Virus record (IMG/VR): IMGVR_UViG_3300045973_000957
Location: 1-39,155 of that record
From: a virus
Direction: 5' to 3' (one strand)
Length of the DNA stretch: 39,155 nt
Shown piece after piece: positions 4,315 through 38,534 of the stretch. Below the pieces are notes generated by a model. That model made no database searches. It saw nothing but the letters and a program-made list of their open reading frames with translations, and was not told where the DNA came from. Positions within the stretch are counted from its first letter, which is position 1, and each line of letters starts with the position of its first letter. The position numbers and the translations under genes were made by a program.

Positions 4315-7300
4315 TGGTTTGCCACCAGTCGGTCGGTATTTGCGCTACGTTCACTATTCTCAGCAGTTTTTTCGGTTGCTTCGGCAACGCGGATGAACCC
4401 TGCTTGGGATACTCTTACTCCTGCCAGTGACGCCGCAAGCAGCTCTCGCAGTAACCGGTTCTGTTCTTTCAGTTCTGCAACGGTTTCCTTGTTATCGGCA
4501 CTGCCGGTTATCTGCACGGGGATACGGCGGCCATCGGGGAGCGGCACGGCGGCTTCCGGCCCCGCTTCTCCGAAAATTGATGGACCGGTGGCAATACCTC
4601 CGGAGGCAAAGGCGGGAAGGCCCGGGAATAAAGTTGTCCATTTCTCCCCCTGTGCGATGCGCAGCCACATTTTCCGGTCATCAGCATTAACGACTCCTTT
4701 CGGGTTTACGATGTCATACTCAGGGTTCTGACTGTAGCTCGAATATCCGCCGAAAGAGACCTGTATCATGTTATTGATGGCCTTTTGCGCCATCACCCTC
4801 ATGCGGGCATTGGTCATGTTGTCCGTGATTCCGGGTGCGTCCAGCGGATTGGTCACCGTGCCACCCAGAGCGGTCAGGTTATCCTGGGCGCTTTTGACCG
4901 GCGTGTATGCCGAGGTGGCCAGGGTAGTGAACTGCTCCGGAGTAATGGTGCGAGAGTTATACTGTCCGATCAGGCTGTGGAGCGCCGGCGTATAATCGGC
5001 ATATTTTTTGGTCAAGTCTGCGGTGGCCGTGTTGACCAGCTCCGCCTTCATGGAGGCATTGAACGCGCCGAGCAGGTTGGCCAGGACCGAACCGGCGCCC
5101 AGATTGGAGTTGAGCGCCTTCAGGAGCGGGTTGTTTTCCAACGTCAGGGCTTCTTTGATCCCTTCCAGAAGGGTTATTTGCTGGTCTACCTGACTGGTAG
5201 GTGAAGACATCCCGGCTATTCTGGCAAGCTCGTCAGTGACAAGCTTGTAATCAGCGGTATATCCGGTACCGCTGGCATTGTACTGCTGTGATGCAGTTAA
5301 CGCCGCCTTGCCTAGTTCTCCTGACTTGCTGTAGTCAGTGTTTGAGGTGAAGGCCGCCATTGCCTGCCGGTATTTCTCTTCTGGGGAGAGAGTAGATAAC
5401 GCGCTGCCTTGGATCTCTTTCAGGGCTTTTGCGGCCGAGATGGCAATGTCTATTGTTTTTGTAATAGCATCAGTGGTGGTTTTTACCGCTACGGCCTGAT
5501 CCTGCATGGCTTGGTTGTATAAGGTCAAAGATTTAACCGTGTATTCAACTCCAGCAACTAGGAACTTGGTCGTATTATCCAAACCATACGCTTCAGCCTC
5601 ACGAACCTTTGTGAGCGTGGTTGTATATTCAGCAGTATCTTTCAAACCTTTCAATTCAAGAGTTTGAAGAATCAATTTGTTTTGGGTTAAGTTGATTTTG
5701 TCCTTGATCTGTTGGAGTTCAATTTTGCCCTGTTCTAATACATCTTTGTATCCGGTGTATCCTATATCCAACAGTCTCAATGCTTCAGGTAGCGATTTCA
5801 TGAACTGCATATACAGGATATTATTTGATTGGCTGTTCGGCTGGACTGGTGAAGTTATTGTAGAATCAGCTTCAGTTCTAGTTCCTCCGGCGTCTCTGAT
5901 GGCCATGTAATTAGAGATTTGTGCATCAGTCAATTTAAACAATTCAGCCCTGAGATAGCCATTGACCATACCTTTCAAATCATTCCAAGCAAGCAGGTTA
6001 TTATCATCAATTTTCTTTTGAACATTGAGCATTGCCGCTTCGTCTGCTTTTCCTTGGTCAGTGAGAACAATCCCTTTTGCAGCAAACGCCATGTTCTGAA
6101 ACTCTTTAGTAACACGTTCAAATTCAGCTTGCGCGGCTTTTGCAGCAGCTCTATTTCTATCCATTGCTGCGCTAAATGTTGAAAACACTGCAACCGCTGC
6201 TCCGACAAAGGGCAAACTATTTGATACGGCACTACTGAGCGTGGTTGTAGTTGACGCCGCCATCATCCCACCCGATGTAGTCTGATTACTGTTCAAGCCA
6301 CTGTAGTTCGAACCGGAAAGAGCCGAACCCATAGCGTTCGTTAACGGCCCTGTTATCGCCTGCTTGACTGCTATTCTTGCCAAATCGGCAATGATGCTGT
6401 TTGCCAATGATTTAAAGTCGAACTTGCCAGTGGTTACAAATTTCACCAGCGCGTCTTCAAGACTCTTGAAAGCATTGGTGAATGCAGACTCAATCTGCTT
6501 GCCGATATTTGCGGCCTCATCACCGTACTTTTGGAGAGCATTCGTCATGCCGCCGATGGCGGTGCGGTCGTAAAGGAGTTTTTGCTGTACGAGGATCTTT
6601 TCATTTTCGGCCCTGACTTTTGAAAGAATCTGCAGACGCTTCAGATCACCTTCCGGACCCTGTTGACCTTCCAGGTTGTATTGCTCTTTAAGGAGATTGA
6701 CGGATTGGCTGAGAATTCCGATACGTTTAAGGGCGGCTTCACCGGTGCTGATCTGGTAAAATTTTTCCTGGGCATTGACCGCAGCAAGGTTAAGTTCATT
6801 CTGCAGCACAATGCCGTCAGTTTTTGCCTTGTTGTCTTTCAGAATCTGCTGAATATAGTCTGACTCCTGTTTCAGCATGGCATTTTCGGCTTGTTCCAGC
6901 TGCATCCGGATTGCATGCTGTTCTTTGTTGCTGTCAGTCAAACGTATATTGGCGGCCGCTTCATTTTCCAAGGCCCGGATTTTTTCAACATCGACACCGG
7001 TGGAAGCTTTCATGCGGGCTTGTTCAGCTTTTGGCAGACGTTCGATTTCGTTAACCAGAGTCTGGAACTTGAAAGCGTTGTCCTCGAGATTGCGAGTGAG
7101 TTGGTCTACTGATGAGTCTGATTTGAGAACTTCTCGCTGAAGAGTATTGAAAGACGTCACAACACTGTTGATCTCGCCGGTGTAGTCTTTGTGGTCGGCA
7201 CTGGCAGCAGCACTGGCAGCAGCCTCTTTTTTCAGACGCTCGACCTCACGGGCAATACCGGCCGCTCTCGCTTTTGGGTCATCTTGAAACGGCTTGCTTG

Positions 7301-24429: not shown

Positions 24430-25065
24430 TTAAGCAAATACTTCCATTGCCTTTACGTAGCGCATATTGCGGTCGGCAAGGCCGTTATAACCGCCGTTGA
24501 CAACTCTGGTTATGTGTGCCGTTTTTTCGGCATCAGCCAGGAGGTTCAACTCGTTGCGGCTCCAAAACCAACACGCCGACTCGATAGCGCCTTCCGGCGT
24601 CTCCAGGTAGGCGGTGATCTCGTTGTAAGGTTTCCCGGCGGAGCGGGCAAAATTGATGTAGTTAGCGCGACCCGTGCACTGGATAGCGCCGCGTCCCCGA
24701 TGGGCCCAACCGTCGCCGGACGCTTCGTTTCCGTTGCCCAGGCGATTGGCATAGACGCTGTTGGCGATGGCCTCCGGATTACGGTGAAGCTTCAGGGCGA
24801 GGGCGTTGGGGGCTTTGATCTTTGCCTTGGGATCCACTGCGTAGCGGTTTGGCCATTGCGTTGCCAGGGCTTCGGCGCTGTAGTTGAGGTTCTCGACCAA
24901 CACGGTAAAACCGGCGCTTTCATGGCCACACTGGGCAAGGAACGCGGCGATTCGTAGTGGCGTGGTGATTCCGTACTTCGGCAATATAGCGTTGAGCGCC
25001 GCAGACCAGATGCCGGGCTGTTTATTACCGGGGAATAATTTTATGAACTGTTCGGGGGTTATCAT
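24430..25065 (-). CDS. Endolysin (GH19 family)
   Basis: A 211-residue endolysin from ATG 25065 behind GGGAGGG. The glycoside hydrolase 19 fold is visible: AAFLAQCGHESAGF with Glu49 as the likely catalytic acid, NRLGNGNEASGDGWAHRGRG, IQCTGRANY, and VNGGYNGLADR. The enzyme would cleave peptidoglycan at lysis. It is the first gene of the late operon behind the intergenic region. An upstream in-frame start at 25101 has no good ribosome-binding site. Confidence 0.9.
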   Translation of the reverse strand: MITPEQFIKLFPGNKQPGIWSAALNAILPKYGITTPLRIAAFLAQCGHESAGFTVLVENLNYSAEALATQWPNRYAVDPKAKIKAPNALALKLHRNPEAIANSVYANRLGNGNEASGDGWAHRGRGAIQCTGRANYINFARSAGKPYNEITAYLETPEGAIESACWFWSRNELNLLADAEKTAHITRVVNGGYNGLADRNMRYVKAMEVFA

Positions 25066-25295
25066 TGGCCCTCCCTGGGCGCCCGGCGACGCTCTGACCA
25101 TGCCGGGCTGATGTCATGTTACTGGTGGTATATGTGGTGGCCGCTTGTGCACCAGAGGGTAAATGGCCTTAAAATCAGTTTGGACCGGGGAGAGCTGGAG
25201 GGGCTCTCCTGGTGTCAGCGTTAGAAGCACTGCCGGTCCATATAGCCGGGGAAGTTGGCTTCGGCATCACGTTTGGCCTCAAGGGCTCGGGTGTT

Positions 25296-25321: not shown

Positions 25322-25396
25322 ATAGCAATAAGGAGGAACTGACAGGGAATTTACATCGGAGATGCGATGATTGTGAACGGGAAGGGCTTCAGAAAT

Positions 25397-25429
25397 AAAA
25401 AGCCCCAATCCGGGGGAGCGGAAAGGGGC
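25397..25429 (-). terminator. Rho-independent terminator (proximal of a tandem pair)
   Basis: On the minus strand GCCCC (25425-25429) pairs with GGGGC (25402-25406), followed by TTTTT (25397-25401). It would end the early/middle transcript just after the cassette genes. Confidence 0.65.
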
Positions 25430-25502
25430 GGTTACTTGTCAGAGTCTTGGGAGGCCTCTATGTCATTTCGCCTTTTATCTCAAGGGCGGCAGAATGTCAA
25501 CA

Positions 25503-25560
25503 GCATAACTTCCGATGCAGCGGGTTCCGCTCCGCTACACCGCTGATCTTGACGTTATGC
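25503..25560 (-). other. attC recombination site 1 (58 bp)
   Basis: Coding-strand order: R'' GCATAAC, spacer GTCAA, L'' GATCAGCGG, terminal structure containing GCGGAGCGG, L' CCGCTG-C-ATC, spacer GGAA, R' GTTATGC. R'' and R' are perfect inverted 7-mers. L'' and L' pair over nine bases with one extra base in L', the extrahelical-base signature of attC sites. R'' begins two bases after the stop codon of the 86-residue gene, the normal place in a gene cassette. Confidence 0.85.
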
Positions 25561-25856
25561 CCCTACTCGTATTTGACTCCGCAGAACGGGCAGTAGCTGT
25601 GCAGAATGTCAATCTTGAGGGGCTTCTTTTTCTCGTTAAGCTCGACCTCAAGAATGGACAAGGTGGCGCAACCGAGTTTAGCGCTGCCATCCTCCTTCCG
25701 AATCCAAGGGAAGCCAAGTCCGTTGAAACTGATTTTTTTGACTGTTGCCTTTTTTCGAGCGACAAATTCAGCGATTTTACCGGATTCATCAGCTTTTAGC
25801 GTTTCGATGCAGTTGCAGTTCATAATTTATCCTTTCATGGCACCAGCGGGGCATAA
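25509..25856 (-). mobile_element. Integron-type gene cassette inside the prophage (348 bp)
   Basis: Cleavage between G and TT of the two R' sites (25856 and 25509) would release a circular 348-bp cassette that holds the 86-residue gene and its attC. The upstream gene 25897-26145 is probably a second cassette: its stop codon lies inside R'' of its attC, and a consensus core site GTTAAAC (26165-26171) precedes it. No integrase gene is in the window. Confidence 0.7.
25563..25823 (-). CDS. Gene-cassette protein with zinc-ribbon-like C-terminus
   Basis: An 86-residue protein from ATG 25823 (AAAGGA upstream). It starts MNCNCIETLKADESGKIAEF and ends SYCPFCGVKYE, so cysteines occur as CNC and CPFC and could bind one zinc. 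The frame sits exactly between two attC sites (25851-25902 upstream, 25503-25560 downstream), the layout of a mobile integron cassette. No known family was recognised. It is probably read from the phage middle promoter upstream. Confidence 0.85.
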   Translation of the reverse strand: MNCNCIETLKADESGKIAEFVARKKATVKKISFNGLGFPWIRKEDGSAKLGCATLSILEVELNEKKKPLKIDILHSYCPFCGVKYE

Positions 25857-25902
25857 CCCGCGTCTGGTGCCGTTTATGCGGCACAGCCGCAACCCGTTAT
25901 CG
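25851..25902 (-). other. attC recombination site 2 (52 bp)
   Basis: Coding-strand order: R'' CGATAAC (includes the TAA stop of the 82-residue gene), L'' CTGTGCCG, loop CATAAA, L' CGGCAC-C-AG, R' GTTATGC. The ATAAC/GTTAT core pairs and the L arms pair over eight bases with one extra C in L' at the same place as in site 1. It is shorter than site 1 but has the same polarity. Confidence 0.75.
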
Positions 25903-26145
25903 GGCCATATCTTCAGCCAACTCTGTCAACTCGCTTTTTTGCCACATCGCCCTAATTTTAGTCCGGAGAATGCAACGGTCAATGCCACGGAACCGAACTA
26001 CAACCATCGGATCACCATCGTTGTATGATACAACCTTGCCTTCTCGGCGGACGAATTCAAAACTATTGCCTCTTCGTCTGCCAGTGTCAGTCCAATGCAC
26101 CCGTTGCCCGATAACCAGACAATCGTTCAGATTCGCTTCGCTCAC
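25897..26145 (-). CDS. Probable gene-cassette protein, hypothetical
   Basis: An 82-residue basic protein from GTG 26145 (AAAGGAG upstream). It includes GQRVHWTDTGRRRGNSFEFV and GDPMVVVRFRGIDRCIL, and looks like a small beta-barrel domain. Its TAA stop is part of the R'' box of attC site 2, as in true cassettes. A GTTAAAC core-like site lies 20 bp before its start. No family was recognised. Confidence 0.8.
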   Translation of the reverse strand: MSEANLNDCLVIGQRVHWTDTGRRRGNSFEFVRREGKVVSYNDGDPMVVVRFRGIDRCILRTKIRAMWQKSELTELAEDMAR

Positions 26146-26161
26146 AGCACATCTCCTTTCG

Positions 26162-27067
26162 TTATGGTTTAACTTCTTTCGGAAACAATAAGTCCCGGAG
26201 CAACGCCGCTCGTTCGAAATCCATTATCGCTACAGCTTTTTCCATTAGTCCCTTCAATCGCTTTTCCCGAAGTTTATCATTTCTCTTCCGGCGGAAATCA
26301 TCCGGCAGGATGGTGAAAAGCTCGAACGCTGCTAAATTGGTGTGCCCATACCTGCCTGATATTACCCACCACATATTGTTGATGTTGTAGTAAGCGATGC
26401 CGGTGCATATGCGCCCTTTTCTGTCTGCAAACCAGACGCGTTGGCCATGATCCAACATCACCCCATCAGCAGATTTTCGGTTGTAATCACTGATATTGTA
26501 TGTAGTCAGATCACCCTTGAAGTGGCAACTGGTCGCGTAACAACCTGCAAGCCACTCCATGGCGGTCAGGTGGCCAGGTCCGCATATATTTGCCCGCCCA
26601 TCGATTCTGTCAGCTTTGAACTCGTATCCGGAGAACACGTTGCACAGATAGGTTCTGATACGGCGCCGGGTCCTTTCCATCTCCAAGCGCATCACATACG
26701 GCATGTGCTTCTCTTTGTCATACTGATAGCGGCCTTCATGATCCGGTCTATCTGGCGCATTCACGTTCTGAAACATATCGAATTGAATACAGCGACCAGA
26801 AATAGAAAGATCCGCCTTGAGATCACCCTTGACGCAATAACGCTGCCCCTCGGCAAACCGGCGACCATACTGTTTGATCTTGTCTTCAGGAACTACACAC
26901 CTCCAGCCAATACGACCCAGCGTCTGGATGATCCGCGTGAAGACCTGCCGCTTAAAAGCCTTTTCCCATGCGTCACGCTCCTGAAACGATCCGCCAAGGC
27001 CGTCTTCCCATACAGATAAAAAAGCATCACCAAAAAAAAGTTTTCCGATTCGATTTATTTGCACCAT
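26162..27067 (-). CDS. Hypothetical protein with C-terminal UVR motif
   Basis: A 301-residue protein whose start at 27067 overlaps the sulfotransferase-like stop as TAATG, behind GGAGGG. Residues about 90-200 contain conserved-looking aromatic segments. The last 35 residues, KGLMEKAVAIMDFERAALLR and DLLFP, match the UVR motif of UvrB/UvrC and related proteins, a helical hairpin used in protein-protein contact. The function is not known. The end of the gene, GTT AAA CCA TAA, coincides with an integron core-like site, so its present C-terminus may have been created by cassette insertion. Confidence 0.78.
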   Translation of the reverse strand: MVQINRIGKLFFGDAFLSVWEDGLGGSFQERDAWEKAFKRQVFTRIIQTLGRIGWRCVVPEDKIKQYGRRFAEGQRYCVKGDLKADLSISGRCIQFDMFQNVNAPDRPDHEGRYQYDKEKHMPYVMRLEMERTRRRIRTYLCNVFSGYEFKADRIDGRANICGPGHLTAMEWLAGCYATSCHFKGDLTTYNISDYNRKSADGVMLDHGQRVWFADRKGRICTGIAYYNINNMWWVISGRYGHTNLAAFELFTILPDDFRRKRNDKLREKRLKGLMEKAVAIMDFERAALLRDLLFPKEVKP

Positions 27068-27654
27068 TATTGCCCTCCTTCCCTGAGTAGTTCCAATTCC
27101 AGCAACCCCGGATAGCATTCCGGCTTACGATCTCGAATGACAGAGGCCATTACACCCGCATCACCACCGACAAACTCTGCCAGCCGTTGAGCCGATTGAG
27201 CGGGATCAGTAATCAGATTTTCAAAGTTGAGTTCCATGAAAGGGCCTTTTGCATGTTTGCGGAGCAACTGTTTGCATTTATGCCCGTCCGTGATCAACGA
27301 CCGTTCCAGCCTACGTAACTGCGTTCGCCCATACTCAGGTAACCCGGCCATTAAATGCCCAAATTTGGAGATTGACCGGGCCTGCTGCCTCTCATTGCGT
27401 CGCAGCCAGATAATGCGGCATCCATCCAGGTGCAGGTCACAACGGTGGGGATCAAGGACCTTGACCGCCTTGCCCTTCCACTCCCCAGCGAAAAGGCTTG
27501 CCGTCGACGGCAGATTTATTCGCTCATCTTCAAAAGCCGGGTACTCACCAGTGGTGGCAATTCCGGAAGCTGCGAGCATCTGCATGACAAGCGAAGAACC
27601 ACACCTGCCAAGTCCTGCGACAATGATAGTTTCAACGGTTTTCACCTTTTTCAT
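27067..27654 (-). CDS. Sulfotransferase-like P-loop protein
   Basis: A 195-residue protein beginning with a beta strand and the nucleotide-binding loop AGLGRCGSSLVMQML (residues 13-27), which resembles the 5'-phosphosulfate loop of PAPS sulfotransferases (GxxRSGTS). A second strand-helix, CRIIWLRRNERQQARSISKF, fits the 3'-phosphate loop. It is shorter than typical members, so the substrate is unknown. It sits in the middle operon with an ATGA overlap to a membrane protein gene. It looks like an accessory (moron) gene; virion or cell-surface modification is possible. Confidence 0.75.
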   Translation of the reverse strand: MKKVKTVETIIVAGLGRCGSSLVMQMLAASGIATTGEYPAFEDERINLPSTASLFAGEWKGKAVKVLDPHRCDLHLDGCRIIWLRRNERQQARSISKFGHLMAGLPEYGRTQLRRLERSLITDGHKCKQLLRKHAKGPFMELNFENLITDPAQSAQRLAEFVGGDAGVMASVIRDRKPECYPGLLELELLREGGQ

Positions 27655-27833: not shown

Positions 27834-28172
27834 CTATTCAAACAATTTGCCCTGCTTGGCCTTGAAATTGGCATCTCTGATGTCCTCAACGATCTGCCGG
27901 ATACGCCGGGTGGTCAGTTTATATTCATCCGCCAGATTTTCGTAAGACACACCGGCTTGCCAGCGCTTGAAAATCCGCTTGGCCCGCTCGCAGGCGTAGT
28001 AAAAATGACCGGTATTGATGTACACATTGTCTCCGCCGAACTCTTCCTGCATGGTGTGAGCTGCGAGCGCCGCAATATCTTCAGGCGTGGCTGGACGTTC
28101 CGTGTACAGGTTCGCGGTAAACTTCATTACAAACTGCATCAGGACGTCATTCTGTTTCTGTACTTCTGCCAT
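27834..28172 (-). CDS. Mor/C-family transcription activator
   Basis: A 112-residue protein of the Mor family. The N-terminal dimerisation helices include TPEDIAALAAHTMQEEFGG and GHFYYACERAKRIFKRW. The C-terminal helix-turn-helix is VSYENLADEYKLTTRRIRQIV. In Mu, Mor turns on the middle promoter and the related C protein the late promoters. Only one such gene is seen here, so it may activate the late operons directly. It overlaps the upstream gene by 26 bp. Confidence 0.88.
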   Translation of the reverse strand: MAEVQKQNDVLMQFVMKFTANLYTERPATPEDIAALAAHTMQEEFGGDNVYINTGHFYYACERAKRIFKRWQAGVSYENLADEYKLTTRRIRQIVEDIRDANFKAKQGKLFE

Positions 28173-30840: not shown

Positions 30841-30947
30841 GTGGGTGCGTTTTTTCTGTTTATTTTGTTTTTTTGTGTCGTTTTGCACTCGGTTTGCCTC
30901 TTGGCTGCATCATCAGGCCCCAGGAGCCACCCTGGGACGACGACCAT
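30837..30947 (-). CDS. Possible leader peptide (36 aa) coupled to the HTH gene
   Basis: A small frame from ATG 30947 to TGA at 30837, starting MVVVPGWLLGPDDAAKRQTE and ending in lysine- and asparagine-rich residues. Its stop overlaps the HTH start as ATGA. Its ribosome-binding site and ATG (AAAGGAAAATG) form the 3' arm of a 13-bp stem (see 30941-31008). There is no other evidence that it is translated. Confidence 0.45.
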   Translation of the reverse strand: MVVVPGWLLGPDDAAKRQTECKTTQKNKINRKNAPT

Positions 30948-31008
30948 TTTCCTTTAGGCCCTTTATGCCCTTCAGGGTGCAAAGGGTCCGGCGTCAGGAA
31001 AATGATCG
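30941..31008 (-). promoter_or_regulatory. Nested RNA stem burying a translation start
   Basis: CGACCATTTTCCT (30941-30953) pairs with AGGAAAATGATCG (30996-31008) at 12 of 13 positions. Inside it GGCCCTTT (30957-30964) pairs with AAAGGGTCC (30981-30989, one bulge), and CCC/GGG closes a TTCA loop. A separate stem CCCAGG/CCTGGG lies at 30919-30936. On the minus strand the outer stem holds the ribosome-binding site and ATG of the 36-residue leader frame. Confidence 0.6.
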
Positions 31009-31016
31009 TTTCGCAA

Positions 31017-38389: not shown

Positions 38390-38402
38390 TACTTTATTTT
38401 TG

Positions 38403-38534
38403 CGTCACAACTCTTTTTATGCGTAATTTAGTATTTTGCTGTTTAACTATATATAATTATTTGTTTTTATTTTCGTCACAACTTTAAAATTTATTCGTCA
38501 CAACTGCGTCACAACTCATAATTGCGTTGTGACC
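38403..38534. promoter_or_regulatory. Repressor operator array and repressor promoter
   Basis: CGTCACAACT occurs at 38403-38412, 38474-38483, 38496-38505 and 38507-38516, with an inverted GTTGTGACC at 38526-38534. Neighbouring copies start 22 and then 11 bp apart, two and one helical turns. An AT-rich stretch with TATAAT at 38452-38457 is a candidate -10 box for the repressor gene; no good -35 is seen. The arrangement fits cooperative binding by the phage repressor. Confidence 0.7.

Follow-up and report, generated by a model that had tools for sequence, protein, structure and literature searches.

Probable integron-type gene cassettes in a Mu-like phage, with attC hairpins that appear to precede and oppose their genes

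Results

The window analysed here is the whole 39,155-nucleotide stretch of IMG/VR virus record IMGVR_UViG_3300045973_000957, a Mu-like phage with a MuA-type transposase and AAA partner, a Mor activator, a terminase and a portal. The terminase is 72-87% identical to those of phages with Desulfobulbaceae or Deltaproteobacteria as their named hosts, and the hosts of the window phage are likely to be Desulfobulbales. Two small genes, A and B, belong to the minus-strand gene track and lie between Mor (27834-28172) and the endolysin (24430-25101). In relatives this interval is a variable cargo region, with different content in each of L084, L078 and L085; L078 has one cassette gene together with others, and L085 other small genes. 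When the empty site of the window phage was sought in relatives, other cargo was found there and none was empty with matching flanks. At the same spot L084 (3935-6785), and also L079, carries a set resembling a diversity-generating retroelement: a reverse transcriptase with a small accessory gene, two variable proteins of lectin-like type and a template-like repeat rich in adenine.

Gene B (25563..25823, minus strand) encodes 86 amino acids with a C-terminal YCPFCG, may be a zinc-binding protein and belongs to a phage family found at 15 loci with identities of up to 76%, matching phrog_7033 over its last 26 residues. The closest homologue (76%, L002) is in an early region without hairpins, while the one in L003 lies between two model-supported attC-like sites. 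Besides these sites, L003 has a 24-bp inverted repeat (AACGGGGCGGCGGATGAGCAGCTG) around its homologue, at 4820-5330. Gene A (25897..26145, minus strand) encodes 82 amino acids if it starts at the GTG at 26145, or 67 if it starts at the GTG at 26100, downstream of a repeat described below. Gene A had no relatives in the viral, genomic and Desulfobulbales collections. Searching 258 Desulfobulbales genomes found neither gene A nor gene B, nor the cassette gene of L078, and a DNA search of plasmids gave no match.

Next to gene A is a 318-amino-acid phage gene (26162..27118, minus strand; phrog_7674), which probably starts at 27067 and ends in CCATAAC. It is widespread in phages. Its two nearest homologues (L017 and L018) are cassettes ending in ATAAC within cassette arrays, and more distant homologues mostly end in a TGA that overlaps the next gene. 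The arrays also hold a GIY-YIG nuclease gene (L017) and, judged by its R-box ending, a ThyX gene (L273). The presence of phage-family genes inside arrays indicates that phage genes have been recruited into cassettes. The initial annotation had described the genes as being of unknown family, as in bacterial cassettes, but gene B and the adjoining 318-amino-acid gene belong to phage gene families. A sulfotransferase-family gene (27067-27654, minus strand) is further phage cargo adjoining the 318-amino-acid gene.

Two hairpins, at 25503-25560 and 25851-25902, were present as first annotated, the L arms of each pairing 8/8 with one extra base. Site 1 (25503..25560) was recognised by two covariance models (R1 and R2) and by box pairing. 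Its canonical top strand is the plus strand, opposite to the genes, on which it reads R'' GCATAAC, L'' GAT-G-CAGCGG, L' CCGCTGATC and R' GTTATGC. The R boxes GCATAAC and GTTATGC pair 7/7 and the L boxes 8/8 around the extra base, and crossover is predicted at G^TT, 25554/25555. Site 2 (25851..25902, plus strand) is shorter, with R'' GCATAAC, L'' CTG-G-TGCCG, L' CGGCACAG and R' GTTATCG, and is the predicted attC of the gene B cassette. Its L boxes also pair 8/8, with the bulge in the plus-strand L''; its R boxes pair 5/7 when integrated and 10/10 in the circular form, and its spacing resembles that of L018 4929-4976. Both hairpins sit against genes as had been described: site 1 starts two bases past the gene B stop codon, and an R box of site 2 contains the gene A stop.

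A third R-box pair, CGATAAC/GTTATGG (site 3, 26109..26167, plus strand), lies between gene A and the 318-amino-acid gene. Its L pairing of 5/8 is no better than chance, recognisable L boxes are absent and the good ribosome-binding site of gene A falls within it. Site 3 is probably decayed, or no attC at all. When the insides of the hairpins were shuffled with the R boxes fixed, 8/8 L pairing with a bulge was reached in 0.1% of trials for site 1 and 0.35% for site 2. Among 60 windows simulated with a Markov model, none contained a site of the site 1 class, and site 1, folded as DNA, comes out well below its shuffles. A finder with a strict GTTRRRY motif overlooked site 1, whose R' is GTTATGC, and the motif was relaxed to GTT. 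One other R-box-like stretch (25175-25226; GTTAGAA with an L-box-like stem) was rejected: it has no R'' and folds barely better than shuffles.

Beyond site 1 the phage backbone resumes. A promoter (TTGACA-N17-TAAAAG; 25472..25500, minus strand) begins 2 bases past the site and is followed by a terminator (about 25394-25428, minus strand), and this pair is conserved before the endolysin in five loci (the window, L079, L084, L085 and L089). With a promoter (TTGACA, 17 bp, TATAAG-like) so closely followed by a terminator, 25394-25500 on the minus strand resembles a small RNA gene or leader.

Model R1 was built from 19 attC sites of class 1 integron plasmids and integrase-bearing Desulfobulbales contigs, and R2 from 44, the R1 set enlarged with further sites from host contigs; both were trained on bacterial attCs only, with zero phage sequence. 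With R2, site 1 scored 27.3 bits on the plus strand with an E-value of 1.8e-4, E-values here coming from a short calibration and from a purpose-built attC set rather than IntegronFinder's, and the next best score in the window was 9.9 bits. With R1 it scored 18.4 bits on the plus strand and 8.4 on the minus (gene) strand. Site 2 matched neither R1 nor R2 and rests on its L-box pairing and the repeats described below, so the covariance search proposed with the initial annotation bore out one site of the two. Across 1 Mb of phage loci R2 matched three places only: site 1, which was best, then L017, after the homologue of the 318-amino-acid gene, and L003, after the gene B homologue. As a yardstick, the attCs of phage TJE1, published as active with IntI1, scored 27.5, 30.2 and 33.2 bits on the gene strand, and site 1 is level with these. 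As a cluster, the window has one model-supported site and one recognised by pairing, and L273 has four model matches. In an attC search of 58 whole host genomes only 105 candidates were scored per genome, and the few matches have little bearing on abundance.

We compared the strand of each attC with that of its genes. The reference attCs checked came from resistance plasmids and Desulfobulbales arrays; in them the extra base is in L'', the 5' arm of the gene strand, and the spacers are 5 and 5-6. At sites 1 and 2 the extra base is in L' of the gene strand, and the canonical attC top strand is therefore the plus strand, opposite to the genes. The boxes of the attC layout were thus as first annotated, but not their polarity: the layout had been placed on the coding strand, and site 1 scores best on the other. 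The seven best R2 matches in L003, L017, L018 and L078 are also all opposite to the strand of the gene array; six are clear of noise and the last barely so (11.4 against 10.7 bits). The four best R2 matches in L273, a contig fetched only after the polarity pattern had been seen, are reversed as well, making 11 sites in five phage contigs besides the window.

A mechanical stop-codon rule classified plasmid sites as 12 sense and none antisense, host sites as 21 and 3, and phage sites as 3 and 9. Antisense attCs thus make up 9/12 of the phage sites against 3/36 of the classified plasmid and host sites (Fisher p 2e-5). We judge the three 'sense' phage exceptions to be shadow ORFs opposite or beside the real gene. 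Most cassettes, though not all, have their gene running with the attC top strand; in the window and in the five other phage contigs the two are opposed. The integrase and the attC array share a strand in one Desulfobulbales integron (L212), a reverse-integrase layout, and one repeat-flanked ORF there lies on the opposite strand.

In a circular cassette the first bases are joined to the last R box, so the two ends should be complementary. Both genes are flanked by perfect 10-bp inverted repeats of this kind, all on the minus strand. Gene A lies between GTTATCGGGC (26106..26115) and GCCCGATAAC (25896..25905), which contains its stop codon, and gene B between GTTATGCCCC (25848..25857) and, on the gene strand, GGGGCATAAC (25554..25563). 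This is the pattern expected from the R boxes of a circular cassette, and known plasmid integron cassettes have the same kind of repeats, of 9-12 bp. Across the phage loci GTTA-type repeats of at least 8 bp gave 10 ORF matches, where control cores gave 1-3. Repeat-flanked genes number eight in four contigs, two in the window, two in L017, three in L018 and one in L078, this last being counted on its other strand too, with one more in L164.

The extent of a mobile unit can be seen in two of the relatives. The cassette gene of L078 has an 81% DNA-identical copy in L273, in another neighbourhood. Identity runs from the CATAAC before the upstream hairpin, across hairpin and gene, to near the CTTAAC of the gene, and the outer flanks differ on both sides, so that in these relatives, as distinct from the window, the breakpoints are at R boxes. 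As the identity covers the upstream hairpin and the gene, the mobile unit is the hairpin plus the downstream gene, which is what reversed polarity predicts. When the locus was first annotated, site 1 was assigned to gene B and site 2 to gene A; this comparison does not support that pairing and points to the upstream hairpin as the one that moves with a gene.

Following the R-box crossover rule and the L078/L273 comparison, the reversed model predicts a cassette B at 25555..25896 (plus strand), consisting of gene B antisense with site 2 as its attC, and a cassette A at 25897..26161 (plus strand), consisting of gene A antisense with site 3. The prediction for cassette A is weaker because site 3 has no L boxes; as site 3 also carries the ribosome-binding site of gene A, this cassette may be decayed. 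Site 1, against the phage backbone, may be a resident landing attC or a remnant.

As had been noted, the window encodes no integrase: we found no tyrosine recombinase in the record. There was none in L273, and no integron integrase above the cut-off in eight related records. Neither attI nor a Pc promoter was recognised in the window, which does not qualify as a complete integron. An integron integrase is present in 80 of 146 Desulfobulbales genomes. As the window lacks one, recombination would be in trans, and a host integrase would be its simplest source.

Discussion

Genes A and B are quite probably integron-type cassettes, each made up of an attC hairpin and then a gene, and swapped by a host IntI acting in trans. 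The flanking repeats, the attC models and the related phages all back the original reading of integron-type cassettes in a Mu-like phage without an integrase of its own. In each unit the attC hairpin would come first and the gene, read away from it, second, whereas the usual order is gene then attC. With the hairpin ahead of the gene, the attC bottom strand, which integron integrases recombine, is the coding strand. A host integron integrase would fold the phage coding strand and cleave the R box at G^TT, and cassettes could then pass from one phage to another, or be exchanged with other sites, with site 1 as a putative resident landing attC. This recombination by IntI may still continue today. 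In the window itself, site 1 alone is model-supported and cassette A is weak.

An ordinary orientation, with each gene followed by an attC on its own strand, would pair site 2 with gene A and site 1 with gene B. Each good hairpin would then be attached to a gene, the phage backbone would begin right past site 1 and the stop codons in or beside the R boxes would be placed as in standard cassettes. We consider this unlikely, as it puts the extra base in the wrong arm and site 1 on the strand where R1 gives it 8.4 bits rather than 18.4. Five other phage contigs show this reversal at their model-supported sites, and it is the upstream and not the downstream hairpin that travels with the gene in L078 and L273.

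Some hairpins resemble one another in sequence between phages, L078 and L273 sharing one at 84% in different places, and this could also point to intergenic stem-loops that spread genes without being site-specific cassettes. T4-type phages have mobile regulatory (promoter) stem-loop cassettes, intergenic and thought to act through homologous recombination, and the window phages and these have in common intergenic hairpins tied to the shuffling of phage genes. We know of no claim of attC architecture for the T4-type cassettes. Such spread would fit a phage with no integrase, but it leaves unexplained the perfect, gene-specific R-box repeats, the match to a bacterial attC model down to spacers and bulge, and the one-sided polarity, and it too seems improbable. 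Under chance, gene B would be followed by a hairpin of terminator type (site 1) and site 2 would be a second palindrome, neither having anything to do with integrons. Hairpins are abundant in phage intergenic regions and site 2 has no covariance match; even so, we give this very little credence, given the repeats, the model score and the recurrence beside homologous genes in unrelated phages. Shuffled insides seldom pair equally well, and phage loci without these arrays do not match the rate of equally good matches and repeats.

The integron-type cassettes proposed here share much with those of chromosomal and class 1 integrons: R and L boxes, the extra base, the spacers, a stop codon in or near the R box and the R-box repeats of a circular form, which are 9-12 bp there. 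They differ in their reversed gene order and polarity, in the absence of an integrase, a recognised attI or a Pc promoter from the window, and in having some genes of phage families. Insertions at attG, a non-classical genomic site, are alike in placing cassettes outside the integron platform, a comparison made by literature description only.

Clusters of attC sites on phages are not in themselves new, contrary to what the initial annotation implied. Qi et al. (2023; PMC9892861) described phage attC clusters without an integrase (CALINs), and 5/6 of the sites tested recombined with IntI1. Those arrays resemble the ones here in being on phages without an integrase. The attCs of their Tetrasphaera phage TJE1 are on the gene strand, whereas those here are on the opposite strand, and the arrays here are in a transposable Mu-like phage as well as in other phages. 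Our searches, which covered open-licence papers, turned up neither a description of gene-attC polarity reversed in this way nor one of such arrays in a Mu-like phage, and the reversed hairpin-gene architecture appears to be new.

Whether phages, especially the Mu-like phages of Desulfobulbales, maintain a separate cassette pool is an evenly balanced question; in such a pool the attC would stand ahead of the gene in the opposite orientation, and the strand recombined by the integrase would be the phage coding strand. If the pool exists, its cassettes would be expressed in phage operons and silent when placed behind the promoter of a bacterial integron, and polarity would be a barrier between two cassette economies that draw on the same host integrases. 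Small accessory genes are known to be swapped among phages, by a mechanism that is often unclear. Reversed, site-specific cassettes driven by host integrases would account for the sharply bounded genes that unrelated phages have in common, and would connect gene flow among phages with the integron system of bacteria. Such arrays could then be overlooked, or given the wrong orientation, in integron searches that take attCs to be gene-sense.

Two other features of the window lie away from the cassettes. An AT-rich stretch (38401-38517) contains TKCGTCACAACTN four times, perhaps as binding sites for the transposase or repressor near a phage end. In the early region, 30899-31016 on the minus strand matches the type II hammerhead ribozyme (Rfam RF02276, 52 bits).
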